Shown piece after piece: positions 11,140 through 27,346 of a DNA stretch of 64,000 nt. The position numbers and the translations under genes are program-made. Numbering within the stretch: position 1 is the stretch's first letter; each line of letters opens with the position of its first letter. This DNA is from Aequorivita sp. H23M31 (GTDB lineage Bacteria; Bacteroidota; Bacteroidia; Flavobacteriales; Flavobacteriaceae). The DNA lies in the NCBI RefSeq assembly GCF_004022485.1, contig NZ_CP034951.1:806001-870000 (forward strand), given 5' to 3'. The notes beneath the pieces were generated by a model, which saw only the letters and a list, made by a program, of their open reading frames with translations, made no database searches and was not told the origin of the DNA.

Positions 11140-12957
11140 TCAATCAGGATTTTTATTAAGCGTGCTATTTGCCTGTATTACATCAATGAAGGATTCCTCT
11201 TTTTTATAAGTGATTTTAGGCTCCTCGACAATGTTCTCTTTTTTTATAACCCATTCAACTATTGGAGATTTTGAATCGGTAATTTGAGCTGTATCCAAAA
11301 ATCTATCTAACCTGTGTTCATCAATCGATCTATTTAAAATGAATTCTGAAGTATAATTCTCAATAATTTTCAAGACATCATCCATAGTCTCCAAAGGCTC
11401 TAATAAGATTTTCGAAATATTAGCATATCCATATGCGGCACCCCATAAGCCATAAGTCAAACCATAATTCTTATATTTATTTTTTTCCATATAATCCTGT
11501 AGTTTATCCATTTCACTATATCGTGCCATAAAACAGGACAATGATTGTAATGCCAGATTGGAAGATTCTTCAATTTTAAAACCAACCCCAACAGTTTTTA
11601 AACTTTTATACAACCGTCTTAAATATTCTATATCCTCAGTACTAGATGTGTTGTTTAGTTTCAATGCTTGTGCAGTATTTTGAATGATATCAAGTCTTTG
11701 TTGTGCAATTTCATCTGTTGTAGATAATTCTAATCTCGATAATAATTCATTTATAATAAGATTGTATGAATTATTATCACTATCTGACAGCTCGGAAAAC
11801 TCGGCTTTTTTTACTGATAAATCCTTTTCAACGCTAAAAGGAAGATTCTCGAAAGTTACGGAAAGAGATGTTTCTTTTTGATATTCAGATATCTTGGAAG
11901 CAATCAATAATCTGTAGTCATTGAAGGTTTCTTCTAACACTTTATAGCCATGAGATGATGGGCGGGAGAGAAATTTTTCCGCATTATCAATCAACGCATT
12001 TAATAATTCATCAATCCCATATAAATCCTTATTCCTTTCTTTTAAAAAAACTGAAACAATTGAATAAATTGAGTTGTTGGTATTATTATATTTAAGCGTT
12101 TGGAATAGCTCAAGCTGATCGTTATTTATCCCAAACGAATTTTTAAAAAATTTGTCTAATTCTATTTGTTCGTTCTCACTAAATAATATGCTTATCCTTT
12201 CCTTTATATCTTTAAGATGACTGAATTCGGAAGTTGTTCGTTTTTTATCAACTCTCTTCGGAGACTTTCTCTCATTCGAAACAACAGAAAGCTCATTTAT
12301 TAAAACAGAATAAGAATTAATAAAATCCTGAAAATACCGTTTCCCTTCAGCTATTTCATCGGGTTGTTCCTTTAATTTTCCTGCCACAAACCCATATATA
12401 AACCCTTTAAGTTTGTTGATTTTTTGATCAATCAATATTTGTTCGTGATTTACATTTTTATAATCTCTGACTGAATCAAGAAATTTCTCATCCCAAGAAA
12501 CTATATCAAACCTGTAATCATCAATTAAAAAAATGTTTGCCAAGTAGAGATCTGAATGCTTTATTTCCAGACTTCTTCTTGTTGAAGCCATTAATTTACT
12601 TTTTTCTATATCGCTCGACACAATAAAAAAGCACTCCTTCCAATTTAGGTAAATAGTGGAATCTGTTTGTAAAACAGTTACTTCTCCACTTCTTACCTCC
12701 CTGAGATTATTTGAAAAACATGATTTAGGTATAGCCACATAAATTCCAAATTCTTCTCGGTCACTTTTTAAAGCATCCACAATTGTAACCTTACTATATG
12801 CCAAAATGGAATTAGGAAAAGGATTTGCACTGATTCGCTCAAATCTCTTAAAACCATAGCCCCTTTTTTCATAAAACGAAAAAGGGGATATACTTTCGGA
12901 TGAAAGAATATTATTAAAGTTCAAGCTATTGACGGGTATGTAATAATAATTGTTCAT
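11140..12957 (-). CDS. Unknown 605-residue partner of the UvrD-like helicase
   Basis: I do not recognise this protein. It starts with a Tyr/Asn/Ser-rich N-terminus (MNNYYYIPVNSLNFNNILS), continues with a beta-rich part (FGIYVAIPKSCF, VTVLQTDSTIYLNWKECFF), and then a long helical section with several Lys/Glu-rich stretches. No transmembrane segment or known catalytic motif is seen. It starts 10 bases after the helicase gene, so the two are very likely one unit. A substrate-sensing or nuclease-adaptor role would be a guess. The same frame stays open for 67 codons after its TGA stop. Confidence 0.6.
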   Translation of the reverse strand: MNNYYYIPVNSLNFNNILSSESISPFSFYEKRGYGFKRFERISANPFPNSILAYSKVTIVDALKSDREEFGIYVAIPKSCFSNNLREVRSGEVTVLQTDSTIYLNWKECFFIVSSDIEKSKLMASTRRSLEIKHSDLYLANIFLIDDYRFDIVSWDEKFLDSVRDYKNVNHEQILIDQKINKLKGFIYGFVAGKLKEQPDEIAEGKRYFQDFINSYSVLINELSVVSNERKSPKRVDKKRTTSEFSHLKDIKERISILFSENEQIELDKFFKNSFGINNDQLELFQTLKYNNTNNSIYSIVSVFLKERNKDLYGIDELLNALIDNAEKFLSRPSSHGYKVLEETFNDYRLLIASKISEYQKETSLSVTFENLPFSVEKDLSVKKAEFSELSDSDNNSYNLIINELLSRLELSTTDEIAQQRLDIIQNTAQALKLNNTSSTEDIEYLRRLYKSLKTVGVGFKIEESSNLALQSLSCFMARYSEMDKLQDYMEKNKYKNYGLTYGLWGAAYGYANISKILLEPLETMDDVLKIIENYTSEFILNRSIDEHRLDRFLDTAQITDSKSPIVEWVIKKENIVEEPKITYKKEESFIDVIQANSTLNKNPD

Positions 12958-12967
12958 ACGCTAATTA

Positions 12968-14098
12968 TTAAAAGGGTAAATCATCATGTTCCTCTTCATC
13001 ATCAAAATTATTCGATATTTCAAGATTATAATTATTGGATACTGAATCACTAGAGTTCTTACTTCCGTTACCTAGTTCTATAACTTCAAATAAGTTTTTT
13101 GACACTTTTTCCAATGAATGCGATAAAGAATCCGTGTACAAAATGAACAAATCCAGGTATGTTCTTGTTAGTGCCACATAAAGAGGATTTCCATCTGCTT
13201 TTTGTAAAAAAATACTTGAGCAATTAGGAATAAATACAGCTTCAAATTGCAACCCTTTCGCACTGTGATATGTTAGAATCTTTGGGTTTTCACTATGGAA
13301 ATTTAAAGTGAACTTAGTATCATTTGGCCAGCTAATATCATATTTAGCTTCAACCCGAAAGTTCTTCCCCTTGTAATATTCATCAGCAGCTTTAACCATA
13401 TTATTATCTGGAAGAAGAATACCAACATCTGTATATCCACGTTCCTCTATCGTATCAGAAATAAAATTAAGTTGCTCTTGCCAGGATCCGGCCTTTACTA
13501 GAAATGGTTTATTAGCTCCTTCTTTTGTACATCTACTTTCTAGCGAATCTCCAGTTCCATTAATATATTCAGCAACTCGTGCTATTTTCTTTGGCAATCT
13601 ATGGTTTAAAACTAGTTGCTCCATTGGCAAAGAAGTATGATAGGCAATTTGCTCCATAGTCATTAAATTCTGCTTTAAACCTTTATAAATTTGCTGTGCG
13701 GAATCGCCGAATAATATTAAAGCCTTTTTCGCCGAATTTTGAAGTTCCATTAACTCTTTTCGGGAGAAATCCTGAACCTCATCTATTATAACGTAATCGG
13801 CATTTGGTTGTCTTAAACCATTTTTCCATCTATAATGGTGTACTACGCGGTCCTGCGCCAACCCCGTTTCGTTAACACCATCATTAATAAATTGACGCAA
13901 AGCTTTGGTGTAAACTATAAAATAATAACTGCCAAGATTAGCCTCGCTAATTTCTCGTGCCTTCCATAATGCCAAAACGGTTTTACCTGATCCAGCACAA
14001 CCTTTTACTACAAAGGACTGGTCTATTTTCTTTTGGATTATGGGTGTCTGAAAATCATCCATCTCAGACTCATTGATATACCAAGCTTCTCTTGCCAT
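12968..14098 (-). CDS. UvrD/Rep-like superfamily 1 helicase
   Basis: All main SF1A motifs can be read in 376 residues: motif I GCAGSGKTVLALWKA (33-47), motif II YVIIDEVQDFS (about 100), motif III LFGDSAQQIYKG, motif IV-type LNHRLPKKI, motif V TYHSAKGLQFEAVFIPN and motif VI YVALTRTYLDL. The protein is short because the 1B and 2B insertions of UvrD are reduced, as in small helicases of defence loci such as GajB. The acidic tail (DDEEEHDDLPF) is unusual. It is expected to be an ATP-driven DNA or RNA translocase. It is coupled to the 605-residue gene downstream and separated from the DUF6339-like gene by the McrB-head remnant. Confidence 0.85.
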   Translation of the reverse strand: MAREAWYINESEMDDFQTPIIQKKIDQSFVVKGCAGSGKTVLALWKAREISEANLGSYYFIVYTKALRQFINDGVNETGLAQDRVVHHYRWKNGLRQPNADYVIIDEVQDFSRKELMELQNSAKKALILFGDSAQQIYKGLKQNLMTMEQIAYHTSLPMEQLVLNHRLPKKIARVAEYINGTGDSLESRCTKEGANKPFLVKAGSWQEQLNFISDTIEERGYTDVGILLPDNNMVKAADEYYKGKNFRVEAKYDISWPNDTKFTLNFHSENPKILTYHSAKGLQFEAVFIPNCSSIFLQKADGNPLYVALTRTYLDLFILYTDSLSHSLEKVSKNLFEVIELGNGSKNSSDSVSNNYNLEISNNFDDEEEHDDLPF

Positions 14099-14120: not shown

Positions 14121-14315
14121 CTAAAAAATATTCATACTTTGCCACTTATAATTTTCAATTAGGATATCGTATTTTGTCGAGGCTCTTATACCAAAATCAC
14201 CTGTACTTCTTTCTGCAAAGACTTTTAGTATAAACTCTCTTTTTACTTTTTCGATATTGATTATACTTTCAATCCGTAATGCAATTTTTGCAATGATATA
14301 GTTAGCGTTTTTCAA
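14121..14315 (-). pseudogene. Remnant of a ScoMcrA-like N-terminal head (McrB start)
   Basis: A 64-codon frame contains IEKVKREFILKVFAERST, then GDFGIRASTKYDIL, which aligns with residues 6-35 of the McrB head at 7187-7303 (PEKIKRDHVLKAFAEIDK, GDIGIRASTKYDIL). The DNA similarity is visible too, including an exact run of about 19 bases (GTCGAGGCTCTTATACCAA on the plus strand). Similarity stops after about 37 residues. It follows the DUF6339-like gene directly, so an McrB/McrA-like gene once stood here and was cut by recombination. Confidence 0.7.
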
Positions 14316-15814
14316 TCAAATAAACTCCCAGTTCCACTTCCTGTGAAATACTCTGGGGCATATTTACTAATAACAAAAAACTCCTCTCTGTAATGAGGAT
14401 TATTTATAGATTTCCCCAAAGCGGTTAGGGAATTAAAAATCAACTTATCAATAGAATCCTCAATGTCTTTAGGAAGCATAATATAATCAATAGTTCCTGA
14501 ATCATAATGGTCATATAAAGTCTTATACCCTTGTAACCCCACAGTGGAATTATTGTTTTTGAACTTTGATGATAAATGGGCTTTGAAATATCGGACGCCA
14601 TTATAATCATAAAAAATTCCAATAATTGCCTGATTAGGAATCAACAATAATCTCTTCAATGTTTGACCTGCGTACAAACCATTCTTATATTCCAAGCGAT
14701 TTCGACGTAAAAGGCTTTCTACCGTGACTTTGTTGATATTTCCGTCTTCATTGTAACAAATTAATAAATGTCCCTGTTGAAACTCCTCCTTAATGGGAAC
14801 TTGATATTTATAATTATTATTAGGTACCGAGGTTACGCAATAGCCCCCGTTGTCATTTAAATTAAAATACCGAAGCCATTTTCCATTCCTCTTGTTATTT
14901 GTAGAAACCGATTTTGGATTAGGTTTTTCAATATTTTTTCTTGTGGGCTCTGCTGCATAGCTTCCCGCACTAATAATCTTTTGCTCAGGGACGTCTGTAC
15001 TTTCTTCTTTCTGAGTTTTCTCGCGAGACTTGACTTTTCCTTCCTTCACCCCTTGTGCGCGATTTAATATGCTTTCCTTATACCTGTCCAACTTTTCTTT
15101 AATTTCCTCCTGTGTCAGAAAGCTTAAAACCGTTAATGCTCCTATTTGATTAAGAGCTCTGCTCGTTTGCTGGGCCACGGCCTCCGATCCTATTCTTTTT
15201 CCGTCTCGCGATGCATCTTTGTTCTCATTGTAAAAATCCAACAACGCAAATATCGTAGGTTGATGACGTATAAATTGATACGTCCCTACGTTCTTATCCC
15301 GCAAGTTACGGTCGGAAAGAAATATTTTTGTATAATGATATTTGTCGGAAGGATTATCGTCATTAATGGTTAAATGTACTGACCACCATAACCCTGCAAT
15401 TGGCGATTTGATTAAATTATTCTGTGACGGCTTCAATGCGAGGAAAAAACGCTCAAAACGTTCCGATAATTTTCCCTCATCATCTTCATCCTTGTGCTCT
15501 ATCCATCGCCTTTTAATATAGCTGAAGAAGTATTTCAAATTGAAATACACCCAATAAAGATTATCTGAAGCCATTTGAGGATCCAAAGGAAGAGATTCGT
15601 ACAGTATCTTGGCTAACTCAAATTCATTTTTAGGTTCTGTTTCAAATTGGTGATAAAATGAAGTCAAAGTGTGTTGTGAGATTGACGGATATTGAACATC
15701 ACGAACTTCAATGCTGGTCATATCAAATTCATGTCCATCTAAAATCGCTTGAATATTTTCACGAAAAGATTTTCGTAATTGCGTTAAGCTTTCAATTGTA
15801 ATCCTTTTACTCAT
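14312..15814 (-). CDS. DUF6339-like protein, last gene of the seven-gene defence unit
   Basis: I chose the ATG at 15814, which overlaps the previous gene (ATGAGTAA), instead of a TTG 9 bases upstream. The N-terminal half has LPLDPQMASDNLYWVYF, SPIAGLWWSVHLTIND and GTYQFIRHQPTIFALLDF, which I associate with DUF6339, a family found beside restriction genes; that identification is from memory. A basic linker (KVKSREKTQKEES) and a C-terminal domain of about 180 residues follow (GQTLKRLLLIPNQAIIGIF, LYDHYDSGTIDYIMLPKD). No catalytic motif is evident. Its tight coupling to the GHKL and methyltransferase genes makes it a probable structural or recognition subunit. Confidence 0.65.
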   Translation of the reverse strand: MSKRITIESLTQLRKSFRENIQAILDGHEFDMTSIEVRDVQYPSISQHTLTSFYHQFETEPKNEFELAKILYESLPLDPQMASDNLYWVYFNLKYFFSYIKRRWIEHKDEDDEGKLSERFERFFLALKPSQNNLIKSPIAGLWWSVHLTINDDNPSDKYHYTKIFLSDRNLRDKNVGTYQFIRHQPTIFALLDFYNENKDASRDGKRIGSEAVAQQTSRALNQIGALTVLSFLTQEEIKEKLDRYKESILNRAQGVKEGKVKSREKTQKEESTDVPEQKIISAGSYAAEPTRKNIEKPNPKSVSTNNKRNGKWLRYFNLNDNGGYCVTSVPNNNYKYQVPIKEEFQQGHLLICYNEDGNINKVTVESLLRRNRLEYKNGLYAGQTLKRLLLIPNQAIIGIFYDYNGVRYFKAHLSSKFKNNNSTVGLQGYKTLYDHYDSGTIDYIMLPKDIEDSIDKLIFNSLTALGKSINNPHYREEFFVISKYAPEYFTGSGTGSLFD

Positions 15815-16589
15815 CTTTTTCAATTTTAGCTGTATTTATCAAGTAATGTGCAAAGGTTAAACTCGGCTCCTGCAATATGTGATTCACCAAACTTAAATGA
15901 TCTTCAGGGTCAGGATAATCCTTATCACCTCCCGATAATAGTACCCATCTTTTATGAAGCTCTTCATACCAGGCCAAGTGGTTGCTGCCCCCGTTCTCTA
16001 CTAATAATTGACAAGCTTCCAGTAGCGCAACTTGTGCAAGTTGAGAAGCGAGAAAATGTTTGATTTCAGGTCGGTTCTTCATTTTAACGAGTTCCTTATA
16101 AACCTCCTCGGGAAGTTGAATTTTTATAGTGTGAGAATTAAATAAATAGCTGATATCTTTAGCCTTACTCACTTCAAATTCGATCAAACCTATTCTACTC
16201 TTATCTATTTTGTATTTATGTGAACCTAAATGAGCCAACGGCATTCCTTTTTCAATTCTTTGACCGTCTAAAGGAATGGGCCGTTTTGCGACAATCATTG
16301 TGTCTATTTCAAAATTTACACCTACTGCTTTTTTAGGAATTTTGAAATTCAAACTCTTATCTTCAATATCTTCAGATATAAAGCACTTTCTGTACATAGT
16401 AGCAGAACAATTAACCTCTGCCACTAGATTAATATCGGTAAAGCCTATTCCCGAAGTTCCATTGATAAAAACAGAATGGACAGCTGGAGGTAACGAAATT
16501 TCGTATTCATAAAAATCTTCTGACGGATTTCCATTTATTCTTAGCGAGTGCTTTAAAACATCGTAGGGAAATTTGACTGAATATTTCAT
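15807..16589 (-). CDS. Unknown 260-residue protein between GHKL and DUF6339-like genes
   Basis: The N-terminal 150 residues are beta-rich with alternating hydrophobic positions (DFYEYEISLPPAVHSVFING, IGLIEFEVSK). The C-terminal 100 residues are helical (FLASQLAQVALLEACQLLVE, HLAWYEELHKRW). I do not recognise the family and see no catalytic motif. It starts 5 bases after the GHKL gene and overlaps the next gene by 8 bases, so it belongs to one transcriptional unit. A binding or assembly role for the GHKL ATPase is plausible but unproven. Confidence 0.6.
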   Translation of the reverse strand: MKYSVKFPYDVLKHSLRINGNPSEDFYEYEISLPPAVHSVFINGTSGIGFTDINLVAEVNCSATMYRKCFISEDIEDKSLNFKIPKKAVGVNFEIDTMIVAKRPIPLDGQRIEKGMPLAHLGSHKYKIDKSRIGLIEFEVSKAKDISYLFNSHTIKIQLPEEVYKELVKMKNRPEIKHFLASQLAQVALLEACQLLVENGGSNHLAWYEELHKRWVLLSGGDKDYPDPEDHLSLVNHILQEPSLTFAHYLINTAKIEKDE

Positions 16590-16594
16590 ATTAT

Positions 16595-18256
16595 TTATTT
16601 AATAGAATTTATAGCAGGCGCAACTAAATATGGGGTGGAAAATTTTATTCCACGAATGCTATTTTCTCCTTTCTTCACGTCTATAATCACAGTATCATTT
16701 TCAAAATCATATTCATCGAGTTCAACGATCTCCACAGAATCTCTACTTGATTCCGTTGCGATTGAGAATTTAATCTTTTGTTTTCTGATAGTCTTGGATG
16801 AGGTAAATTCTACATCATAAATATATTCTCCACCCTTCTGTTTTACAGAGAATTTGTGATGGGAAATCAAACGATCCCGTGGTTCTGGATCAGGATCTGG
16901 AGTAGATTTTTTTGGTCCTGCATCAGGTTTATTATCTTTCGTGGATCCAGGAGTTCGTTCAGTAAAGCTGAAAATTTCATTTAGATCATCAAGCCCAAAA
17001 GAATCGGAATCGTCCACGCCTGCATAATTTCCAAAGGATTCCGTAATAAAATCTTTGATAGCGCGGATTGTCTCTCGAGCATCGGCTTTCCTCTCTGGAT
17101 TAATATTCGGATTCCATTCATCGTGAGCTTCATTTTCTATATCTTTAAGAAAAACGTTACCCTTAGGATCATCACATAAAAACACCCCGGCGTACCCACT
17201 GTACAGATTATCCTCCTTGTAAATCAACATTTTTGTCTTTCGAAATCGAGCTACAGCGCCAAGATTAAATTCATCATTTTTATAAAGCCAAAGACTACAT
17301 TCCCCAATGTTCGGAATCCGCTCATTATATCGCATTCCTTTATTATAGGTTTCGTAATATGGCCTTGGGTTTTGATTAAGACCGGTTTTATGGTCTTTAA
17401 AGCTTGGAAAATGATCGGTCATTAATACCTCCAGATTCTCAGAACTAATAACCTCATCTTCAACCTCAACGAGCAATTGATCTGTAGCAACTGCAAACCA
17501 ATAATTCCGCAAAACCTCGGTAATAACCTTCTTTTTGAAATCACCAGCACCCTGCCAAGATCCCAGAATAAATATGGAAGTGCCTTTTTCGTACCGTCTA
17601 AATCGGAGAGGAACATCTGCTTCATCAACTACATCCGTAGTTCCAAAATAACCTTGATATTTTAATTTCTGCGAGTCATCCAAAGGACTTTTGTGAGTTG
17701 AAATGCGGGAAGTTCCACGAAATCGCAAGCCTTCATCACTTTTCGAACTGATTATCATCGTCCTTAAAGCTGAACTTGCAAAATATGCAGCTTTACCCAC
17801 TCCCTTACTTCCTTGGGAACCTGGATCATCCTTATGCGATTTAAAATCACCTTGGGTGAAATAAAGAAAGGACTTGGGATCCATTCCTTTCGTATTATAA
17901 TCAGACACCTCAATATATTGATAGAAAAATTTATCGTTATCAATATGATTTAAATGGCGTTGAATTTCTTTATTTTCTGCTGAATTGTTGTCTCTGCTTT
18001 TACAAATTCTCAAATGATCTTCGATATCTCTTAAATTGGGAATTTCATCCTTCGCTACCTCCCCAGTTCTGATAATCACCTTAACTTGAGTATGCCCAGC
18101 AGTGTCATCCAGGGCATCACTGGAGTTCTGAATCCCCTCTCTTACAATAGATTGAATAGGATTTTTAGCGAAATTCTGAATCGCATTATGTATGAAGCCA
18201 ACTATTGTGCTGGTTTCTTCCTGATGCTGTTCAAATTTCCAAGTATAGTTTTTCAT
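16595..18256 (-). CDS. GHKL (Hsp90/MutL/MORC-like) ATPase of a restriction-type locus
   Basis: The Bergerat ATP-binding fold is clear. The N-box is IVREGIQNSSDALDD (37-51) with its Glu and Asn, the G1-type motif is SDYNTKGMD (118-126), and the glycine lid is GSQGSKGVGKAAYFASS (146-162). Next come TMIISSKSDEGLRF and a transducer-like region (GTSIFILGSWQGAGDFKKKV). A Pro/Asp/Lys-rich linker near 445-470 leads to a beta-rich C-terminal domain of about 90 residues. GHKL ATPases act as ATP-gated clamps. Comparative work by Iyer, Abhiman and Aravind (2008) on MutL/MORC-like proteins in restriction loci, as I recall it, supports a clamp role next to helicase and methyltransferase genes. No histidine-kinase receiver or phosphoacceptor region is seen. 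Confidence 0.85.
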   Translation of the reverse strand: MKNYTWKFEQHQEETSTIVGFIHNAIQNFAKNPIQSIVREGIQNSSDALDDTAGHTQVKVIIRTGEVAKDEIPNLRDIEDHLRICKSRDNNSAENKEIQRHLNHIDNDKFFYQYIEVSDYNTKGMDPKSFLYFTQGDFKSHKDDPGSQGSKGVGKAAYFASSALRTMIISSKSDEGLRFRGTSRISTHKSPLDDSQKLKYQGYFGTTDVVDEADVPLRFRRYEKGTSIFILGSWQGAGDFKKKVITEVLRNYWFAVATDQLLVEVEDEVISSENLEVLMTDHFPSFKDHKTGLNQNPRPYYETYNKGMRYNERIPNIGECSLWLYKNDEFNLGAVARFRKTKMLIYKEDNLYSGYAGVFLCDDPKGNVFLKDIENEAHDEWNPNINPERKADARETIRAIKDFITESFGNYAGVDDSDSFGLDDLNEIFSFTERTPGSTKDNKPDAGPKKSTPDPDPEPRDRLISHHKFSVKQKGGEYIYDVEFTSSKTIRKQKIKFSIATESSRDSVEIVELDEYDFENDTVIIDVKKGENSIRGIKFSTPYLVAPAINSIK

Positions 18257-18268
18257 AATATTCCAATA

Positions 18269-18913
18269 TTAAATAATCTCCACTTTCAAATTCAATTTCA
18301 ATTTATCCGAAATTTCATCTAAAATCTGTTTCTTCTGTTTCGTACTCGAATGGGTACAAACAAAATAACCTCCTTCAACCAAACGTTGCATATAAATAGA
18401 ATCATCAGTCTCTGAAACCAAATCCACCCCACTTATTTTTAAGCCAAGTTCCTTTACTCGTAATGCTCCAATTCTTTCAATAGTTTTGAAAAAAGTATAG
18501 GCAGCATAACCTTCTCTGATTATTGTGCCATCAGGAAAATAAACAATCAGACGGCTTGGATTGGCAATGGAAAATTCTTGTTCCTCTTGAATATCGGATG
18601 GATCCTCAAATTCAGTATGAGAAACGGAAGTGGCATCTTCTATGTTGATAGAAGATGCCGAAGCTATTTCTCCCGACTGTTGATTTACCTCAATTTTTAA
18701 TTCCTCTCTTGGGCGATACCAAATAACCAGTTTCATCTCCCGTCTCATTTTTCCAACAATGGGTTTAATGGCATCCGACAGAGACGGAATCAAATCATTG
18801 GCTAGAATTTCTTGTTCCACCCGACGCGTTTCTTCCATAAGTGTTTCCGGAATTTCTACCCCTAAATCCTTGAGATTTTGAATGGAATTATATAGCTTTT
18901 CAAGTTTGGACAT
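18269..18913 (-). CDS. Unknown 214-residue protein of the seven-gene defence unit
   Basis: It has two parts. An N-terminal helical segment (about 1-60) leads to a strand LVIWYRPREELKIEV and an acidic linker. A compact C-terminal alpha/beta domain (about 118-214) contains RLIVYFPDGTIIREGYAAYT, then FFKTIERIGALRVKELGL, GGYFVCTHSSTKQKKQ and KLNLKVEII. I have the impression that this C-terminal domain recurs beside methyltransferase genes in Bacteroidota, but I cannot name it. It could be a small DNA-binding or specificity module. It starts 31 bases after the ATPase gene and ends 12 bases before the GHKL gene. Confidence 0.6.
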   Translation of the reverse strand: MSKLEKLYNSIQNLKDLGVEIPETLMEETRRVEQEILANDLIPSLSDAIKPIVGKMRREMKLVIWYRPREELKIEVNQQSGEIASASSINIEDATSVSHTEFEDPSDIQEEQEFSIANPSRLIVYFPDGTIIREGYAAYTFFKTIERIGALRVKELGLKISGVDLVSETDDSIYMQRLVEGGYFVCTHSSTKQKKQILDEISDKLKLNLKVEII

Positions 18914-18944
18914 TAGTTACAGATTTTAAAAAAAATAGAGACAC

Positions 18945-20504
18945 TTAAACATTTATATTAGCTTCAATAGACAGCGCCTCGATTGTTTCAATAGCTCTTT
19001 TTAACTCAGTCTCAAATAACGGCGTTTCTATGTCGTAGTGAGAACTAGGATTTAGAATTCTATTCTTGTATTCTATTAGTTTAATTAAATTATTTTGATT
19101 CAATCCATTCGCCATGCCCTTAGTACGAAAGGCTTCTAACATTTCATGTAAGTTCTTTACTGAGTAATTAACATTAATTCTTTCTTGACGACTTAGATAA
19201 GCGTTACATAATTTCTCAGTTGCTTTCCTTAAACAATTAGCCGCCATTGAAAACTCTTTTCCATGATATAGCTGCCAAACTTTACTAATTTGATTTGTTT
19301 TTTCTATGATCAATGGTTTTGGAAACGTCCCAGAACTATCTTCAAACATTTCTAAATACTTCCAATTGGCAATCCCATTTTGTGCAATCTTAGATTTCGC
19401 TAATTCGTAAAAGAATCTATCGTGTGTGAGTAAAATTATTTGATAATCATTAACATAGTTATTTAGAATAATATCCAATAACACATCTCTATTGCACATA
19501 TCTAAACTCAAAATCATATCGTCAATAACAAGTATTTTTAGATCAGCCGTGTATAATCTTGTTTCTAAGATTGCAAACCGTAAAGACAAACCAATCGCGG
19601 ACCATTTGGCTTCATTTAAAAAAGTATGTGGTTTTTTAATAGCTGGATTTTGGATTCCTTCATATTCAGTAATAGAAATAATTATTTCGGGATCTGTCCA
19701 CTTTATTTTATCATCAGTTGCTTGAAAAGTGGGAAATTTTTTAATTATGTTAAGCCCAATTTTAAAATTGTATTTAAAGTCATGATTGATTAAATCATTT
19801 GCCCTTGTAGTAATGTTTGTAAGAAATGTTTCTAGCCAAAAATGCCAAGTGACCCATTTTTGCTTGTAATCTCTATAATTACGATAAAATATCTTTTCTT
19901 CATCTGAAGGAGCATCTTGTAAAGAAGCTGTAGGGAATAATTGATTTCCATTTAAGTCTAAGAATTTAGTTGGACCTTCCTTTAAAGCTTCAAATTCAAT
20001 TAAGCAGGGATCGCTACTCTTTTTAACATAAGGAAATACCTCTTCAAGAAACCAGTTCCAAAGGTTGTTTTTATTTGAATGTTTCGAACTATGAAGTTTA
20101 AACAGAACTCGATAGTTGATAAAATCCGAAGCCATATTACTTTCTCGAATATCTGTGTTGGCTCTGATTGACATATCACTACTTTTTCTTGAAACTCTAT
20201 AAGTTTTTGGATTTCCTAAAGCATCTTTTAGAATTGTTTTTACATAAGTATTATTAGTGCCCGTTGCATGGATATTTACCAAACTCTCATCTCCAGTTTT
20301 TTTAAAGTATTTTCTTACTTCATCATCACTTTTTTTAAAGCTGCATTCTAAAAGTGTATAAAGAGCCCAATATATCGTAGATTTTCCACTTCCATTTTCT
20401 CCATAAACCAATAAATGATTACCATCAATTTTCAACAAAGGACTATCTCCTTCAACTTGTGAGAAAAACTTAAAATCATTAATATGTAATTCGTGAAGTT
20501 TCAT
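18945..20504 (-). CDS. SMC/RecF-like ABC ATPase with a helical C-terminal domain
   Basis: The start reads MKLHELHINDFKFFSQVEG, the usual opening of RecF/SMC-like ATPases, followed by Walker A YGENGSGKSTIYWAL (34-48). The ABC signature region is represented by FLNEAKWSAIGLSLRFAILE near 300. Walker B with D-loop is LKILVIDDMILSLDMCNRD near 330, and the H-loop is IILLTHDRF. The arms are too short for a true SMC coiled coil. The last 130 residues are helical with AANCLRKATEKLCNAYL and NRILNPSSHYD, an arrangement that recalls HEPN-like tails of defence ATPases (inference). It starts one base after the methyltransferase stop. Likely role: a DNA-sensing or loading ATPase of the system. Confidence 0.82.
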   Translation of the reverse strand: MKLHELHINDFKFFSQVEGDSPLLKIDGNHLLVYGENGSGKSTIYWALYTLLECSFKKSDDEVRKYFKKTGDESLVNIHATGTNNTYVKTILKDALGNPKTYRVSRKSSDMSIRANTDIRESNMASDFINYRVLFKLHSSKHSNKNNLWNWFLEEVFPYVKKSSDPCLIEFEALKEGPTKFLDLNGNQLFPTASLQDAPSDEEKIFYRNYRDYKQKWVTWHFWLETFLTNITTRANDLINHDFKYNFKIGLNIIKKFPTFQATDDKIKWTDPEIIISITEYEGIQNPAIKKPHTFLNEAKWSAIGLSLRFAILETRLYTADLKILVIDDMILSLDMCNRDVLLDIILNNYVNDYQIILLTHDRFFYELAKSKIAQNGIANWKYLEMFEDSSGTFPKPLIIEKTNQISKVWQLYHGKEFSMAANCLRKATEKLCNAYLSRQERINVNYSVKNLHEMLEAFRTKGMANGLNQNNLIKLIEYKNRILNPSSHYDIETPLFETELKRAIETIEALSIEANINV

Positions 20505-20505
20505 C

Positions 20506-23500
20506 CTAAACCGTAGCTTCGTTTATACGCTTAATTATATGTGGACTCCGAGTTGTTGAAAGTAAAATCCTGTTCCTAATTTGATTGTCATTTTTATTTA
20601 AATTAATATACTGCTCTGCAATTATCTTCTTTACGCCAGTTGGTGAGCTCAAACCTTCAAGATGAGGAAAATCTATAAATTTCATTATATCAATTTTCTC
20701 CTCTTTCATGTGCTTCTCAAAATACAGTTCAAATGCCATCATATCTACAATACTTTCAAATAGATTGGAGAGAATTTCGTTACTAACCCTAGGGATAATA
20801 GACGTTTTTTCCTTTTTGATGAACAGAATGTAATCAACCAAAAGATTGAATTTATTTTCGGTTTGAGCATCAGGGTAATGAACAAACATTGGCTCCAATG
20901 CTTGTACGCTTATAATTTGATCACCGGTTCCAGTTTGAGGAGATGTTTTTAATAATTGGTATAGTCCAGGTTTTGAATTTAAAATGGCAGTTAAATATTT
21001 TATTTTTTCTCCAGTAGCAATACAGGTACTATCCAAAGAATAAATCTCTTCGTCTGAATAAGCAAAACGCATTATGGAGCCTATACGTTTCCAAATAACT
21101 TTTTCTTTCTTAAACTCATTTAAATATGCGCAGTTTCTTAAATTAAACGGCGTATCACCTTGGTCCTGTCTCCTTTTAACCGAATCCCATAATACCTTAC
21201 TCTCCAAATGATTTTTTATTGAAGGATAGTCATTTATAGAAATTGGTTTTAAATTAATATCTTTTATACCATTATGAGTATTGATTAAAAAGTCATTACT
21301 CCATTCTGCATGATATCGCTCTATTTCTCTCCCTTTTAATATTGGCCGAATGATTTCTTCAGATTTTGGATCTTCTCTGACCAATTCATCTCGCTTAACT
21401 TGATCGATTATAAAAGCTTCATTGAATCCTGTTAAAACTCCTCTATAGATTTTTAAATCCCAATCTTTTAAAGGTTTGCCAAATTTTTCAAAACCTTTTG
21501 AAATAATTAAGTCAACCTCATCCGATACAATCCAAGCATTTTCATTCGGATCTTGAATAGGAATAAATTCTTGTTCATTTAAAACCAGTATATCCTTTCT
21601 CTTTTTTATTGAAATTCCCTTGACATTATTGGTAAAGGGTTCATTTTTCCCTACATATATATTAGTATCGACTGTGGCACTATGAAAGATATTTGGGCCG
21701 AGATTTATTATTTTTGATGTATTAACTTTAGTAAAATATTTCCTCAACACTTTTCCATATCCTCCTTTCATCCATTTATTTGAAGTGATAAAAATTAAGG
21801 TTCCTTTTTCCTTTAGTAATTGAAATCCCTTTTCGTAAAAAACACAATAAATGTCGCCAGTTCTTGCAAATGTTTCAAACTTCTCTTTTTCTAATTCTAA
21901 CTTATCCTTTTCATCCATTTTCTGAATTTGATAATATGGTGGATTTCCAATCACAATATCAAACCCATACGCATTTGCAATTTCTTCATTAAGGACTTCT
22001 GGAAAATCGAGCTTCCAATCAAAAAACCGTAAAGGAACCTCATCTAATGTTTTAGCATGCTCTAAACGTTTAATATGATCAAGCCAGCTTAATGTTTCTA
22101 AATACACTTTCGTGTCATTTTGAAATTGCAATTTATTTCTGTTTTGATAATCCGTTATTTTTGGCGCTTTAGTGACATTTTGCTTTTCTATCATTATCTC
22201 TAATTGGATAATTAAAAGCTCAATCTTTTTGTTTCTAATTTGTAATGCAATAACTTCTTCGTCACTATTTGGATCAAAAGCTTCTTTCTGCAAATCAGTA
22301 ATTTCCCTAAGCAATTCGAGTTTTTGTTCAGTCTTAGGACCAGTAAAAAAGCCTTGATCTTCCTCCTTGGCTTTCCAATTAATATTAATAACTGTATTTT
22401 CTAATTTCGGCACCAAACTATCTCCCACTACAATTTTATAGTTTAAATGAGGTAGAGGTCGAGGAGTTTCATCTTCAATAACCAAGGATAACCAAAAACG
22501 TAAACGAGCAATGTCTACAGCACCAGGTTCTATATCTACACCATAAATGCTGTTTTGGATAATATTTTTCTTAACGGTATGTGGTTCCCAACTTTCACCC
22601 GCCATTTTCCAGACTGCACCTACACGGTCAGGACTTTCATCGTGTAAATTCTTAGTCATTGTAAATATCTCATTGAGCAAACCCATAGGGAAAGCTCCTG
22701 AACCAATTGCGGGATCACATATTTTCACTTCTTTTAATGCGGTGGCTATTTCTTTATCAAACTTGGCAATTTTGGCAGTTTCCTTTTTCTCAACAAATGA
22801 TGCAATGGTTTTTTCAAGTTCATTACTTTCAGCTTCATTATTTGGCCATAAGCTTTGCTTTTCTAAATAGGTTTTTAAGTATTCCTTTAAAGATTCCTGA
22901 CACATATAACGCACAATCTCCTTTGGCGTGTAAAAAGCACCTTTGTCCTTGTTGTCTTCCAATAGATTTTCAAAAATATGACCTAGCATTTCAGGGTCTA
23001 TCCCTACCTCTTTATCGTGGGCATCATTTTCGTCTATGGTAAAGTTGTATTGGTTAAAGAAATTAAAGAGGCTTTCTAACACTGGCGCTGGAAAGTCAAT
23101 TTGTTGTTGCTTATTGCTATCGGGTTCAAAAAGACCTCCACTCAAATAGGGGATTTTTTTATCTATTTGCACCCAAATGTCGTTGGGCCGTTGCGTATTT
23201 AAAGCATCATAAAATAATGGGTTTAAGAATTGGGTAACAAATTGACCAGCGCTTCCACCGTCCATTGCTTTTGTAAAAGCATTATCTAAAAACTGGTACT
23301 CTCCTTCCTTCCAATCTTCTCTATCACTTGGAACCCCGAGCCAGCCTTTCTTTTCTATAAATTTTAAAAATACCAAACGTCCCATAAAACGTTTTACGTA
23401 ATTGCGAACTTCAGCATCTTCTTTTTCAAAAATTGTAATGTAGTGATAAGGAGTTTGATTTATTTGCCCTACCAAAGCTTCGAATTGCTTGATGTACTCG

Positions 23501-24060
23501 CTAAAAAAGAGTTTGCTTACGGCTTCAACATTAAAAGCACTTTCTAGATCATCTAGATTTAATTCTTCTTTATCTTGTATGGAAGCTAGTTGTATTGCGG
23601 CAGTTCGACAGGGCTCGTTTTCACCTAATAAATACGTATAGCGTTTAGCATCTGTGCTGCGCTCAATAAATTCCTGCTTATTTTCGTCATAATCTGTGGC
23701 ATAGGATGAAAATGTTAGGCGATAATATCCGGTGTCCTTTTGGAAAATTGCCAAAACACCATCTACTACATTTTCTTCTATAGTACTGCTTATAATCTGA
23801 TTGAGCCCTGCCCTGTTATTTCGAAGATTTACATCGTTTGCAACATTAAGTTCATAAAGTGCGATGATTTTACCATCATCCAACTGTAAATTGCCCAACT
23901 GTCTGAAGGCCTCTATTTTTTTATCCTTTTTTTCTACATCTTGAGGGACCCTAAACAGTTGTACTTTACCTTTAAACACATCTGTAAGTAATTCTTTCCA
24001 CTCATCGCGATTATACCGATGATTTAGATGTTGTTGTATTTCCTTTTCGGTCTTTTTCAT
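20506..24060 (-). CDS. Type IIG-like adenine-specific DNA methyltransferase (Eco57I/PglX class)
   Basis: I prefer the ATG at 24060 (MKKTEKEIQQHLNHRYNRDE), one base after the helicase stop, over an ATG 48 bases upstream inside the helicase gene. The 1,184-residue protein has an N-terminal region of about 350 residues, then EMLGHIFENLLEDNKDKGAF and YTPKEIVRYMCQESL, the SAM motif VKICDPAIGSGAFPMGLL (about 448), and the N6-adenine motif VIGNPPYYQIQ (about 703). A target-recognition-like region follows (FRNNR-type repeats absent; LNSKPGLYQLL and SVQALEPMFVHYP present). It resembles the methyltransferases of BREX (PglX) and class 1 DISARM in size and layout. A nuclease motif in the N-terminal part is not obvious, so it may only modify host DNA. 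Confidence 0.88.
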   Translation of the reverse strand: MKKTEKEIQQHLNHRYNRDEWKELLTDVFKGKVQLFRVPQDVEKKDKKIEAFRQLGNLQLDDGKIIALYELNVANDVNLRNNRAGLNQIISSTIEENVVDGVLAIFQKDTGYYRLTFSSYATDYDENKQEFIERSTDAKRYTYLLGENEPCRTAAIQLASIQDKEELNLDDLESAFNVEAVSKLFFSEYIKQFEALVGQINQTPYHYITIFEKEDAEVRNYVKRFMGRLVFLKFIEKKGWLGVPSDREDWKEGEYQFLDNAFTKAMDGGSAGQFVTQFLNPLFYDALNTQRPNDIWVQIDKKIPYLSGGLFEPDSNKQQQIDFPAPVLESLFNFFNQYNFTIDENDAHDKEVGIDPEMLGHIFENLLEDNKDKGAFYTPKEIVRYMCQESLKEYLKTYLEKQSLWPNNEAESNELEKTIASFVEKKETAKIAKFDKEIATALKEVKICDPAIGSGAFPMGLLNEIFTMTKNLHDESPDRVGAVWKMAGESWEPHTVKKNIIQNSIYGVDIEPGAVDIARLRFWLSLVIEDETPRPLPHLNYKIVVGDSLVPKLENTVININWKAKEEDQGFFTGPKTEQKLELLREITDLQKEAFDPNSDEEVIALQIRNKKIELLIIQLEIMIEKQNVTKAPKITDYQNRNKLQFQNDTKVYLETLSWLDHIKRLEHAKTLDEVPLRFFDWKLDFPEVLNEEIANAYGFDIVIGNPPYYQIQKMDEKDKLELEKEKFETFARTGDIYCVFYEKGFQLLKEKGTLIFITSNKWMKGGYGKVLRKYFTKVNTSKIINLGPNIFHSATVDTNIYVGKNEPFTNNVKGISIKKRKDILVLNEQEFIPIQDPNENAWIVSDEVDLIISKGFEKFGKPLKDWDLKIYRGVLTGFNEAFIIDQVKRDELVREDPKSEEIIRPILKGREIERYHAEWSNDFLINTHNGIKDINLKPISINDYPSIKNHLESKVLWDSVKRRQDQGDTPFNLRNCAYLNEFKKEKVIWKRIGSIMRFAYSDEEIYSLDSTCIATGEKIKYLTAILNSKPGLYQLLKTSPQTGTGDQIISVQALEPMFVHYPDAQTENKFNLLVDYILFIKKEKTSIIPRVSNEILSNLFESIVDMMAFELYFEKHMKEEKIDIMKFIDFPHLEGLSSPTGVKKIIAEQYINLNKNDNQIRNRILLSTTRSPHIIKRINEATV

Positions 24061-24061
24061 A

Positions 24062-27000
24062 TCACTTGGTGTGTATAAAGGTTTCTGAAATAATGATTTC
24101 TGGGGCATATTGCTCCATAGATTTTATTGCAATTGCTGGATCCTCAGTTTTTTGCATCTTCAGCGGATATTGTTGTAATATTTTAATTAGAGCTTCCAAT
24201 TCTTGAATGTGCGGTACGGGTGTCTTCTTTACAGCACGTTGTAGTTTATTTACATCGCGTTGTAACTTTTGAAACTTGCCGACGGATATTGCTTTTATTG
24301 CCGCTTTCATCAATACTTTTTCCTCTTCTGAAATAAAGGGTAATTTCAACCGCTGACTAATAAATGCTTTTGCTCGTTTTTCATTTGGCCCTTGAGTGGT
24401 ATCTACCGCTTGGGGAGATACTAAATCACTCATTATCTTTTCCTTAAAGTCTGTGTGGGCAATCTGAACTTGCTTATGATGAAAATCTGGCAATGGCACT
24501 GCTTTTTCTGGAGGATCGCATCTAAACTCGTTTGCGGTTTCAACAAATGATAATTCGTCTATACTATTATCTGCTTTAATCCAATAAAAAGCGTCACGAC
24601 GTTTATTGCGCATAAAGCAGATAGTATTTTTATCCAATATCTTTTTATTCCTTGCAACACGCGCACGCAATGGCATATTTTTCATCTTCCTAAATTCTTC
24701 GGGATGATCCTTTTTAAACTTGCGCAATTCCATTAAAAACGCAAGTCGCTCATCTTTGGATTCGTCCATATCCTTCTCAAAAAGTCCAAAACTTTGCGTT
24801 TCTTCATCTGGAGAATAGATCTCGCTATCTTCACCCAAGGCACTATGAAAAGCTTGAAGTTTCATAATAGCTCGTTTCTCCAACTCTATGTCGTTATTAA
24901 CCTTAGCCGTAGGATAAAAATTATAGATATGTACGCTACTCGCTGTACTACCAATTCGGTTTACCCTACCTATACGCTGCATCAGGCGTGTGGAGTTCCA
25001 CGGTGTATCATAATTTACAATAACATTACTACGATGTAGGTTTATTCCTTCGGCAAGTACCTCTGTAGCTATAATGATATTAAAATCACTTTTATAATTT
25101 CCGCGTGGAATATTGGCATCAAAATTTTCACGAATAACGTTTTCAAGCTTATTCCGGTTATCACTCGTAACTTCCAGTACACCTTTTATACCTGCCTCTT
25201 CAAGTTTTTCTCTCAAATAGTTAGTTGTGTCCATAGCTTCTGAAAAAATAACAAGCTTTCCGGTTTTATTTACTGGTGCTACAAGCAACTCCTCTTTTAG
25301 GCGTTTTAAAAACTCATCTAACTTTGGATCAACCGTTACTTTTTGCCATTTTTCATTTAACGGTTTTAATAAATCGTAATCCTTTTTTAATATTTCAATA
25401 AATTCATCTCTAAATTGGTCTGGTTCAGTAATTGTAATGGATGGATCTGTTAGTTGAAGATCTAATAGCTTGGCCAATAACTCTTCTTCTCTACCGTCAA
25501 TTATATATTCATTCACTTTTTGATTGGGTGCTATATAAACTGTTCCATTCTCAAACATATCTACCATAATCTTGGTAGCTTCTGTGAATCTATCTAAGGA
25601 TTTTTTGAAGGCAAAGAAGCTGCTGTCTAGCCTTTTGACAAGAAGTGTGCGCATTAATTTTGCTAATGCTGTGGATGCTACGTCGGCATTTTTGTATTTG
25701 CTGCGTAGTGGTTCCTTTAAATATTTAATCGCCTGATAACGGAAGTATTTAATGCCATATCTTTCATTATCCAAAAGTCGCATCGTTTCATCATAGAGAT
25801 TATCCAAATCTTCGTCTAATTGATAAAAAATCTTTTTTGGTTTTTCTATATCTGGAAAACGAATTCCTTGCTTTTCGAGATCCGCTGAATATAGCTCGTG
25901 CTCCTTTAAATCGCTTCTTGTTCTACGTATGGTTAGGGGCTTAATTACTTTTTCACGAATTTCTTTATAAATATGTTTCACTCCGTGTTTTACAGCTTCA
26001 ACATCGCGCTCATTCTTAAGAGCTTTGTACCGGTCTATGCGTTGTCGAAAGAAATGTTGCAAGTTTGCAACCTCTAAGGAGCTATCTTTTGAGTCTTGGA
26101 AAAGATAAATTTGGTTGGCAATATCCTCTGGTCTATTATTTAAAGGTGTTGCTGAAATTAGCATTACCTTCTTCTTTTCAAAGCTGCCGTCTTTTAAGCG
26201 GTGGTTTGTTGAAGTTTTGCAAATCTTTTGGAGTTCATTATATGCTTCGGCACTATCATTTCTAAATTTATGTGCTTCATCTACAATTATTAAATCGTAT
26301 TTTTTTGCATTGGTTATCTTGTGTAAGCTACCGTTTGTAATGATTCTGTAGTTCTGAAGACCAAAGAGATCTAATGTTTCCACCCAATTCTGTTTAAGTG
26401 CTGGCGGAACAATAATCAAAGTGTTGGTAATATGTGACGGAAAACCATTTGTATAGAAAAACTCCTTTGCTATCAATGTTCCAACAACCGTTTTCCCCAA
26501 ACCTACTACATCACTTAAGAAGAATCCATTGTGGTCTCGCAATAATTTTAATCCAGATTTTACAGCATCAGTTTGGTAATTAAGGCGCATAAAACCTTCT
26601 GGTAAGTCATCGATTGTATTTGGATCAAACTCAACACTATTGCCGAAGTATTCAATTAGAAACTTGATATAAATTTCGAATGGAGTGAATTCATCGTTGA
26701 GATAGGTTTGCTTTTTAAGTTTAGTAATCTCAAATGGCAATATATGTACCCCTTCAATCCATAGCCTTTCAAATTCTTCACTAGCAAATTTTACATCATC
26801 GTAATCTTGTAGCTTTACGTTAAACTCATAATTGAATTGATTGGCATTACTGCCAAGACCGGAATCTGTCAAATTGGATGAACCTGTTATTACGCTTCCT
26901 GACCTATGCTCATTCCAATTTTCAGGCTTGAAAATGTAGATTTTGGCGTGTAGCTTTTTAGAAGGATGCGCCTTTACCTCTATTTTTTTTGTGCAGATAT

Positions 27001-27346
27001 CCTCTATAAATTGCAGAATACCATCTTCAACCTCCTTTGAATATTTAGCTGTTTGAATATCCTCCTTTGTTTTAGCTAAAAAATTCTTTAAAGTCTGATT
27101 TGCATCACCTTGAAATAGAAGACCTTTAGTTTGATAATGGGAAATTAGAGCATCAACATTTATTCCAACCAAAATGCGAATATTAGGAACATCGTTTAGC
27201 AACGGTCTTATTTTAAAATATCCCGACGCTCTAAAATATCCTACCAATGCATCAAAATATTCAATATCCTTGTTGTTATCGAATACCCCCTGAAATTTAT
27301 TGAATAATGTGTTTTGGTCTTGGTTGGTAAAAAACTTTGTTGACAT
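24062..27346 (-). CDS. PLD-nuclease-like / SNF2 superfamily 2 helicase
   Basis: The first 200 residues form a phospholipase-D-like domain with the HxK element LHAKIYIF (about 132) and GSSNLTDSGLGSNANQFNYE (about 155). The SNF2 helicase follows: motif I LSDVVGLGKTVVGTLIAKEF (about 278), motif II LIIVDEAHKFRND, motif III MLISATPLNNRPED, and motifs V/VI IATEVLAEGINLHRSN and LMQRIGRVNRIG. A long C-terminal region of about 280 residues has no recognised domain. Such PLD-SNF2 proteins accompany adenine methyltransferases in defence loci and are expected to translocate on invading DNA. It is the first gene of the unit, and a candidate TAnnTTTG promoter element lies about 23-30 bases before its ATG. 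Confidence 0.88.
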   Translation of the reverse strand: MSTKFFTNQDQNTLFNKFQGVFDNNKDIEYFDALVGYFRASGYFKIRPLLNDVPNIRILVGINVDALISHYQTKGLLFQGDANQTLKNFLAKTKEDIQTAKYSKEVEDGILQFIEDICTKKIEVKAHPSKKLHAKIYIFKPENWNEHRSGSVITGSSNLTDSGLGSNANQFNYEFNVKLQDYDDVKFASEEFERLWIEGVHILPFEITKLKKQTYLNDEFTPFEIYIKFLIEYFGNSVEFDPNTIDDLPEGFMRLNYQTDAVKSGLKLLRDHNGFFLSDVVGLGKTVVGTLIAKEFFYTNGFPSHITNTLIIVPPALKQNWVETLDLFGLQNYRIITNGSLHKITNAKKYDLIIVDEAHKFRNDSAEAYNELQKICKTSTNHRLKDGSFEKKKVMLISATPLNNRPEDIANQIYLFQDSKDSSLEVANLQHFFRQRIDRYKALKNERDVEAVKHGVKHIYKEIREKVIKPLTIRRTRSDLKEHELYSADLEKQGIRFPDIEKPKKIFYQLDEDLDNLYDETMRLLDNERYGIKYFRYQAIKYLKEPLRSKYKNADVASTALAKLMRTLLVKRLDSSFFAFKKSLDRFTEATKIMVDMFENGTVYIAPNQKVNEYIIDGREEELLAKLLDLQLTDPSITITEPDQFRDEFIEILKKDYDLLKPLNEKWQKVTVDPKLDEFLKRLKEELLVAPVNKTGKLVIFSEAMDTTNYLREKLEEAGIKGVLEVTSDNRNKLENVIRENFDANIPRGNYKSDFNIIIATEVLAEGINLHRSNVIVNYDTPWNSTRLMQRIGRVNRIGSTASSVHIYNFYPTAKVNNDIELEKRAIMKLQAFHSALGEDSEIYSPDEETQSFGLFEKDMDESKDERLAFLMELRKFKKDHPEEFRKMKNMPLRARVARNKKILDKNTICFMRNKRRDAFYWIKADNSIDELSFVETANEFRCDPPEKAVPLPDFHHKQVQIAHTDFKEKIMSDLVSPQAVDTTQGPNEKRAKAFISQRLKLPFISEEEKVLMKAAIKAISVGKFQKLQRDVNKLQRAVKKTPVPHIQELEALIKILQQYPLKMQKTEDPAIAIKSMEQYAPEIIISETFIHTK

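Follow-up and report, generated by a model that had tools for sequence, protein, structure and literature searches.

We found that the seven intact minus-strand ORFs packed tightly between positions 14312 and 27346 of the window (the whole stretch of 64,000 nucleotides analysed here, from Aequorivita sp. H23M31) are best read as a mosaic in which a restriction core is joined by a fail-safe cargo gene and by a mobile module that helps restriction (Table 1). The preliminary description of this DNA was right in seeing seven real, closely spaced genes and a restriction-like locus, in which Pfam, PADLOC and motifs identify an N6-adenine methyltransferase (MTase), a nuclease-helicase of the PLD/SNF2 type and a GHKL ATPase linked to restriction. 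Its proposal of one dedicated seven-gene system is not supported, since the last three genes match the catalogued candidate system PDC-M33 and are found beside many other restriction systems. The anatomy of the locus, its modularity, its recurrence and its link to restriction genes are direct observations. A modular restriction reading is very likely, and our best explanation, to which we give a probability of roughly 0.6, is a mosaic restriction-modification (RM) island of interchangeable units, with the last three genes (GHKL, M33B and DUF6339, hereafter the trio) as a general restriction add-on.

Table 1. The seven genes of the locus in gene order, with positions in the window.
Feature	Position	Strand	Evidence
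PLD-SNF2 helicase-nuclease, 1094 aa	24062..27346	-	Pfam, PADLOC, motif
Type IIG-like N6-adenine DNA methyltransferase (MTase), 1200 aa	20506..24108	-	Pfam, PADLOC, MTase neighbour of PLD-SNF2
Rad50/RecF-like ABC ATPase (SMC-like), 519 aa, optional cargo gene	18945..20504	-	Pfam SMC_N, AAA_23, AAA_13
U214, 214-aa accessory protein, FPDGT region	18269..18913	-	Homologues, shared slot
GHKL ATPase, paraMORC2 kind = PDC-M33A, 553 aa	16595..18256	-	PADLOC, invariant columns, ExxxH signature
PDC-M33B, 260 aa	15807..16589	-	PADLOC 4.4e-13, alignment of 58 sequences
DUF6339 protein = PDC-M33C, 503 aa	14312..15823	-	Pfam 2.7e-44, PADLOC 2.1e-23, alignment of 43 sequences

In gene order, neighbouring ORFs overlap by 47 bases, are then separated by 1, 31, 12 and 5 bases, and overlap again by 17; the DUF6339 gene opens with TTG, an ATG being its codon 4. 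Catalytic motifs were found along the locus (PLD HxK..GSxN, GxGKT, DEAH, NPPY, and the GHKL N-box and G2). The downstream neighbour, a UvrD-like helicase (12968-14098), is separated from the DUF6339 gene by 213 bases. The window contains no tRNA and no Rfam family reaching its gathering score, and promoter- and terminator-like sites are not commoner in it than in shuffled sequence. On the right flank, neighbouring genes are conserved in 2 of 27 other genomes of the genus; none of the window genes to the left of this flank were found in these two stretches, so that no clean empty site was delimited.

The first two genes represent the restriction core. The helicase carries an N-terminal PLD nuclease domain (residues H133, K135, G155-S156-N158 and E174), behind which is fused an SNF2/SF2 helicase part (G282-K285, D356-E-A-H359), and is matched by the Pfam families PLDc_2 (1e-8), Helicase_C (1.8e-15) and SNF2 (7.3e-12), as well as by the PADLOC model C3a139 'HKD+Snf2' (9.7e-41). 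The MTase has the motifs DPAxGSGAF (465-473) and NPPY (722-725) and a TaqI-like recognition domain (922-1046), with matches to Eco57I (6.5e-39) and TaqI_C (7.5e-9) in Pfam and to REase_MTase_IIG (7.6e-142) in PADLOC; type IIG RM enzymes unite MTase, recognition part and a nuclease domain of their own in a single polypeptide, and a search of the N-terminal 220 aa for a loose D..[EQ]xK pattern matched 19 of 33 MTases of the IIG-like kind but not that of the window. Of 395 Bacteroidota genomes searched, 72 encode the PLD-SNF2 helicase. In the 39 loci examined (38 of the better-scoring matches plus G394) all relatives have the motif H.K..GS.N, and an MTase lies at most three genes downstream in 34, three of the five loci that miss it being at contig edges. 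No GHKL gene is present in any of these 39 stretches. PLD-SNF2 and the IIG-like N6 MTase are a stand-alone pair, in which the MTase would label the self site and PLD-SNF2 would travel along unmarked DNA and cleave it.

Several described systems share elements with this pair. Scans of window proteins (20 by Pfam, 16 of these by PADLOC, 10 by NCBIfam), with the best 25 rows of long PADLOC tables considered, gave no drmB, drmC, pglZ, brxC or brxL families, in agreement with the earlier statement that the hallmarks of DISARM and BREX are absent. Class 1 DISARM (DrmD, DrmMI) has a distant similarity in its SNF2 helicase and large N6-MTase, but was rejected: DrmD scores 161.9 against a cut-off of 610 bits, drmB and drmC were not found by PADLOC in 16 window proteins, and the sole DrmA match among those listed (3.8e-20) falls on the SNF2 helicase. 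BREX was likewise rejected, with BREX_1_MTaseX at 86.8 against 500 bits and PglZ and BrxC absent among the matches listed. Type-2 BR systems, as described in PMC12839542, have in common with the window an HKD(PLD)-Swi2/Snf2 helicase and an N6-MTase, as well as a proposed restriction action; this candidate was set aside because the DUF499 ATPase is absent from the window's own genome. Among 40 helicase-bearing genomes, DUF499 is present in three, on other contigs or far off and never beside the helicase, and DUF3780 in none, the control genomes giving no match to it either. ARMADA, as presented in PMC12458937, shares an SNF2-type helicase and a PglX-like MTase, with a GajB-like UvrD helicase nearby; it was rejected, as a YprA-family helicase was not recognised in 20 window proteins by Pfam, and the window helicase carries a fused PLD domain instead. 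Finally, Hma has a similar make-up of helicase, methylase and ATPase, but its HmaB is an m5C methylase according to PMC8565338, as opposed to the N6 enzyme here (Eco57I, NPPY).

The SMC-like ATPase is optional cargo. It is present in 7 of the 39 PLD-SNF2 loci, and the slot behind the MTase, which it fills in the window, is empty in loci L013 and L146, occupied by YhcG in L050, and by a hypothetical gene together with TIR in L209. No gene clustering with it was found in 80 other GHKL loci (here and throughout, the best 80 of 142 confirmed relatives), and ABC-type ATPases of other families sit upstream of GHKL in L016, L017 and L037. The earlier idea that the GHKL and SMC-like ATPases stand in for drmABC is not supported, given this result and the lack of GHKL genes in the 39 PLD-SNF2 stretches. 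An alignment of 60 of 77 homologues of 500-540 aa, from at least 120 listed, reveals conserved residues in a C-terminal RxxxE...NPxSHxD region; there, the His of R482-x6-H489 is kept in 60 of 60 relatives and the Arg in 37 of 60. From these residues, the C-terminus may be a candidate HEPN-like domain as in PrrC/RloC. The ABC-HEPN nucleases of this kind, as described in PMC3710099, share with the SMC-like gene a Rad50-like ABC ATPase, a conserved C-terminal His motif and restriction neighbours, whereas the arginine of their Rx4-6H motif, Rx6H in the window, is only partly conserved here. The ABC ATPase would act as fail-safe cargo, probably as an ABC-HEPN RNase set free on restriction failure.

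Concerning the trio, its adjacent genes match all three models of PDC-M33, a candidate system of PADLOC-DB 2.0 (M33A 1.6e-63, M33B 4.4e-13, M33C 2.1e-23). A named system therefore accounts for this three-gene part of the locus and not for the remainder, and the window differs from PDC-M33 in that the trio forms an operon with the PLD-SNF2/MTase pair, the ABC ATPase and U214. The literature searched contained no paper naming DUF6339 or PDC-M33. The GHKL protein has a weak Pfam match (0.056), an N-box at 40-47, G2 at 149-155 and E374xxxH378, whose E374 and H378 are invariant across 27 aligned rows; N-box and G2 are present in 79 of 80 GHKL proteins of more than 500 aa (the window's own counted), and 72 of 80 show E...H..W at some point of their sequence. 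In M33B, C61, T64 and R67 are near-invariant and W207 invariant among 58 aligned sequences, and scattered single-member Pfam matches were judged to be chance. The DUF6339 domain covers residues 67-246, and the C-terminal half of the protein is missing from most of 77 relatives whose lengths were compared; a match to DNA gyrase A (E 0.06) was also judged to be chance. Profile searches gave no PDB relative for GHKL, and no convincing solved relative was found for M33B or DUF6339. A fourth protein of ~76 aa often accompanies the trio.

The GHKL motifs and ExxxH are also those of paraMORC2 (Iyer, Abhiman and Aravind, 2008; PMC2292703), in which ExxxH belongs to the S5 domain behind the GHKL domain and whose neighbourhoods, in the part of that paper dealing with the family, include SF-II helicases, methylases and Vsr, as do those of the GHKL loci examined here. 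M33B, DUF6339, the 76-aa protein and U214 do not figure in that description, and paraMORC2 is characterised there as mainly cyanobacterial and Gram-positive, whereas the best relatives found here are mostly from Bacteroidota.

The order of the trio is conserved in 75 of the best 80 GHKL loci, and L013 and L050 retain all genes of the window locus but the SMC-like one in unchanged order, YhcG standing at its place in L050, so that co-occurrence at no more than chance level can be dismissed. These six-gene arrangements, together with the operon-like packing, would favour a single obligate multi-protein system of seven genes. Such a system is extremely improbable, as GHKL is missing from every PLD-SNF2 stretch, only 6 of the best 80 GHKL loci carry a PLD-SNF2 label, which in one case is weak, and the SMC-like gene clusters with nothing in those 80.

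In fact, the trio has many partners. A labelled DNA MTase lies within 6.5 kb in 53 of the best 80 loci, compared with one of 20 random stretches of 20 kb drawn from four genomes (Fisher p 4e-7), a comparison in which the labels, home-made profiles from these loci's own clusters plus motifs on mechanically called ORFs, favour matches in GHKL loci over the control; for no more than one of the 53 is an N6 motif the sole basis of the label. The next same-strand gene on either side is a labelled restriction gene in 25 of the best 80, mostly at less than 30 bases or overlapping, directly adjoining the trio upstream in L011, L026, L045 and L054, and downstream in L015, L024, L028 and L036. Partners include type I (L004), MmeI (L006), C5/Vsr, HpaII and McrBC-like genes (two representatives each of the McrB-like and McrC-like labels were scanned by Pfam, the L027 and L025 members being unmatched). 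In an independent check on randomly drawn genomes, a C5 methylase accompanies GHKL in four of six loci (eight other genomes had a GHKL match; G038 and G094 were left out), and all eight plasmid loci examined, of 21 records, have an MTase. A quick tree, with long branches and no bootstraps, has the trio meeting PLD-SNF2 plus N6 five separate times, with 22 partner changes. Adjacency alone is no proof of cooperation, since defence islands gather unrelated genes, and an MTase within 6.5 kb is missing in 27 of the best 80 loci; the available span is incomplete for 43 of the 80, and 9 of the 37 full-span loci have no MTase. With two of the six independent loci also lacking one, the trio may function by itself or with partners of other kinds.

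The position of the trio beside many unrelated restriction systems suggests a putative general helper of bacterial defence. It would be a dimeric DNA clamp, gated by ATP and loaded onto DNA processed by the accompanying restriction system, and would help convert recognition or cutting into DNA destruction, a clamp-type role that we put forward tentatively, at less than even odds. Somewhat unlikely is its stronger form, in which the trio, often with the ~76-aa protein, would be a cofactor of restriction that does not depend on the partner, a clamp resembling MutL, fitting almost any RM type and serving a shared downstream DNA-processing or alarm step. The trio could instead be a defence system in its own right (PDC-M33 as listed in the catalogue), for example an abortive-infection or DNA-sensing complex that merely shares islands with restriction systems and works by itself: PADLOC models the three genes under a single system name, an enzyme might have gone unrecognised in M33B or DUF6339, and the loci devoid of an MTase are in line with it. 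We consider this unlikely, as MTase proximity far exceeds that of random stretches and a same-strand restriction gene so often adjoins the trio. Quite unlikely is a trio that, by analogy with PrrC beside the type Ic PrrI, would kill or stall the cell upon restriction inhibition rather than help cutting. A watchdog of this sort is compatible with partner-independence, and in Anantharaman 2013 (PMC3710099) such a role is ascribed to ABC-HEPN proteins and paraMORC-HEPN fusions that neighbour restriction genes, but the trio showed no recognisable HEPN, TIR or nuclease domain, and the separate ABC-HEPN-like candidate in the locus may already hold that role.

Restriction systems are usually viewed as self-contained. 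Under the general add-on reading, a three-gene ATPase module with fixed order across phyla and plasmids and repeated change of partner points to a shared post-recognition step, and the question raised in 2008 on prokaryotic MORC-like ATPases near restriction genes becomes directly testable. If the trio boosts restriction by any partner, it would provide a bacterial precedent for the action of eukaryotic MORC on methylation-marked DNA, and, if the cofactor reading is true, chemically unrelated restriction systems would converge on one downstream step.

U214, which has 24 homologues besides itself and no Pfam family above cut-off, occupies the same slot in L013, L050, L146 and the Parabacteroides plasmid L209, and is a second restriction-linked accessory; a SeqA-like match (E 0.085, in 1 of 19 members) was judged to be chance. 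No GHKL relative was found in viral contigs; one unverified scaffold labelled as phage (L210) has the trio beside a C5 methylase. Homologues of U214, GHKL or the SMC-like ATPase also have equal longest contigs (11324, 13659, 7235, 9981), a hint of metagenome co-location that we kept out of the evidence.

The seven minus-strand genes at window positions 14312..27346 had been read in the preliminary description as a single system linked to restriction. The link with restriction is borne out, but the single-unit reading is not: the locus consists of several interchangeable units, one of which, the PDC-M33 trio, is already catalogued. The seven ORFs have the positions, strand and spacing first reported, and their domain assignments are upheld by Pfam, PADLOC and NCBIfam profile scans. 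No gene shows any sign of breakage, and a motif check of the window proteins found the catalytic motifs intact in the PLD, helicase, methylase and GHKL parts. What is new here is the breadth and frequency with which the trio changes its restriction partner (partner labels come from profiles built on the same loci, and partner changes from a quick tree), its separate unions with PLD-SNF2 systems, and the effector slot, the accessory protein U214 and a 76-aa protein.

The A+T-rich 2-14 kb beside the operon (31-34% G+C) encode, on the operon's strand, UvrD-like helicase, PD-(D/E)XK, NO VEIN, EVE, McrB-like AAA and McrC proteins (see table), and because of these defence-like genes we consider the operon part of a defence island. 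Among the 59 nearest genomes searched, the GHKL gene is present in one, the window's own, which matches the expectation for an acquired island. The genome has seven further near-identical copies of the transposase remnant (about 1884-2142), at 97-98% over some 258 bases. A 376-aa protein resembling UvrD and viral helicases, and distantly similar to GajB, is followed after 10 bases by a 605-aa protein without family, and the two genes possibly form a separate defence unit.

Features in the window and in the opened loci
Feature	Position or locus	Remark
McrC, second, truncated	window 1201-1722	same strand as operon, beside transposase remnant
Mutator-family transposase, truncated	window 1815-2144	beside truncated second McrC
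McrC	window 2775-4067	same strand as operon
McrB-like AAA protein	window 4068-5375	same strand as operon
EVE-domain protein	window 5540-7303	same strand as operon
NO VEIN C-terminal domain protein	window 7533-8936	same strand as operon
376-aa and 605-aa proteins	window 11140-14098	
McrB-like protein	L011:6127-7653	weak U214-profile match
Schlafen AlbA_2-type protein	L013:13614-15311	
Schlafen AlbA_2-type protein	L050:11838-13577	
Basic 76-80-aa protein	L067:9748-9981	relatives in other loci
593-594-aa protein	L152:6606-8387	
KAP-family NTPase	L154:3928-7272	
KAP-family NTPase	L157:2477-4912	
Trio-order exception	L037	M33B outside cluster
Trio-order exception	L058	M33B split, two pieces
Trio-order exception	L078	GHKL fragment only
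Trio-order exception	L079	third gene not found
Trio-order exception	L080	third gene of 256 aa, outside cluster

The last three operon genes, coding for the GHKL ATPase, the 260-aa M33B and a DUF6339 protein, match the PADLOC models PDC-M33 A, B and C, which share one system name; PDC entries are candidates from guilt-by-embedding, according to the accessible part of a later paper (PMC12988326). The GHKL alignment (27 rows) has 35 invariant columns, E374 and H378 included; in the accessible text of Iyer 2008 (PMC2292703), which alone in the open-access literature searched uses the term paraMORC2, the mark of that family is an ExxxH conserved within the S5 domain. DUF6339 and PDC-M33 are not mentioned in that literature, and none of its seven papers with the term paraMORC appears, from the listing, to be an experiment on this family. 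Of 142 confirmed GHKL relatives, the best 80 genome loci were compared, and 75 of them keep the order GHKL, M33B, DUF6339. Plasmids yielded 21 records with a match; the eight trio loci opened among them come from Bacillota, Actinomycetota and Deinococcota, two of them (L201 and L202) sharing their alleles, and have the same arrangement with 24-27% GHKL identity, the third gene being unrecognised in L208. A human-stool scaffold, L210, labelled as phage but unverified and perhaps bacterial DNA, also has the whole trio adjoining a C5 methylase. In the two loci most window-like, L013 and L050, DUF6339 is followed by a Schlafen AlbA_2-type protein (a label borrowed from its cluster mate in L060), and ABC-type ATPases whose families differ from that in the window precede GHKL by one to three genes in L016, L017 and L037.

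GHKL ATPases of the MutL/MORC/topoisomerase kind close as dimers on ATP. Given this behaviour and the proposal, in the accessible text of Iyer 2008 (PMC2292703), of superstructure manipulation together with nucleases, the trio would act as an ATP-gated clamp aiding restriction. Profile scans recognised no nuclease in M33B or DUF6339, a result more in keeping with a helper than with a restriction enzyme; either protein may nevertheless be an unrecognised enzyme, and the trio may be a watchdog rather than a restriction helper, or an independent system.

A fourth gene can accompany the trio. Profile matches place it immediately upstream of GHKL in 20 of the 80 loci (a single cluster supplies 19, and L029 is the other) and in 4/8 plasmid loci. 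Its product is basic and some 76-80 aa long; the spacing to GHKL is 0-11 bases in 17 of the 19 measured, and the genes overlap in two. The single member scanned matched neither a Pfam nor a PADLOC family. The profile of this protein has no match in the window locus, where U214 sits at that position.

Searching 395 Bacteroidota genomes with a five-row alignment (threshold E 1e-60) gave PLD-SNF2 proteins in 72. In the 39 loci opened, the PLD and DExH motifs are universally present, and an N6 methylase of the same profile lies on the same strand at most three genes downstream in 34 and anywhere in the stretch in 36; three of the five loci without a nearby downstream methylase (L149, L154, L184) are at a contig edge. 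GHKL is absent from all 39 stretches, and genome G394 carries a frame-broken GHKL about 27 kb from its PLD-SNF2 locus. Within the open-access literature searched, the pair is nearest to the description of Type-2 BR systems, a likeness that does not prove that none closer exists; the accessible text defines these by a DUF499 ATPase (PMC12839542), which was not found in the window's genome and occurs in 3/40 genomes with the helicase, each time on another contig or distant from the pair. In L151, L152 and L162, PLD-SNF2 is preceded at a distance of one or two genes by a protein of 593-594 aa; the only one scanned matched no Pfam family.

U214 has matches in the window, L013, L018, L050, L146, L147, the Parabacteroides plasmid locus L209 and, weakly (about 1e-8), L011 and L028. 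Five of these nine loci are PLD-SNF2-MTase operons (window, L013, L050, L146, L209). In L018 it lies behind the trio; in L147, a 20-kb stretch of another genome with neither GHKL nor PLD-SNF2, it follows genes for a type III methylase and a ResIII helicase; the weak L028 match is behind a McrBC-like set. From the weak L011 match (2.4e-8), which falls within an McrB-like protein, the U214 region may also be fused to a restriction ATPase.

The genes between MTase and U214 vary, with an ABC ATPase in the window, none in L013 and L146, a YhcG nuclease in L050 and a hypothetical plus a TIR protein in L209; this changing content leads us to regard the interval as an effector slot. In 7/39 opened PLD-SNF2 loci the MTase is followed by the ABC ATPase, which belongs to a large family (of 8000 scored, 2578 are relatives at E 1e-3). 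In the C-terminus of this ATPase R426, E430, N485, S488, H489 and D491 are retained in 60/60 aligned sequences; the region is a HEPN candidate only, since R482, needed for the complete Rx6H motif, is kept in just 37 of the 60. A KAP-family NTPase directly behind the MTase in L157 is perhaps a further occupant of the slot, and another lies upstream of the helicase in L154.
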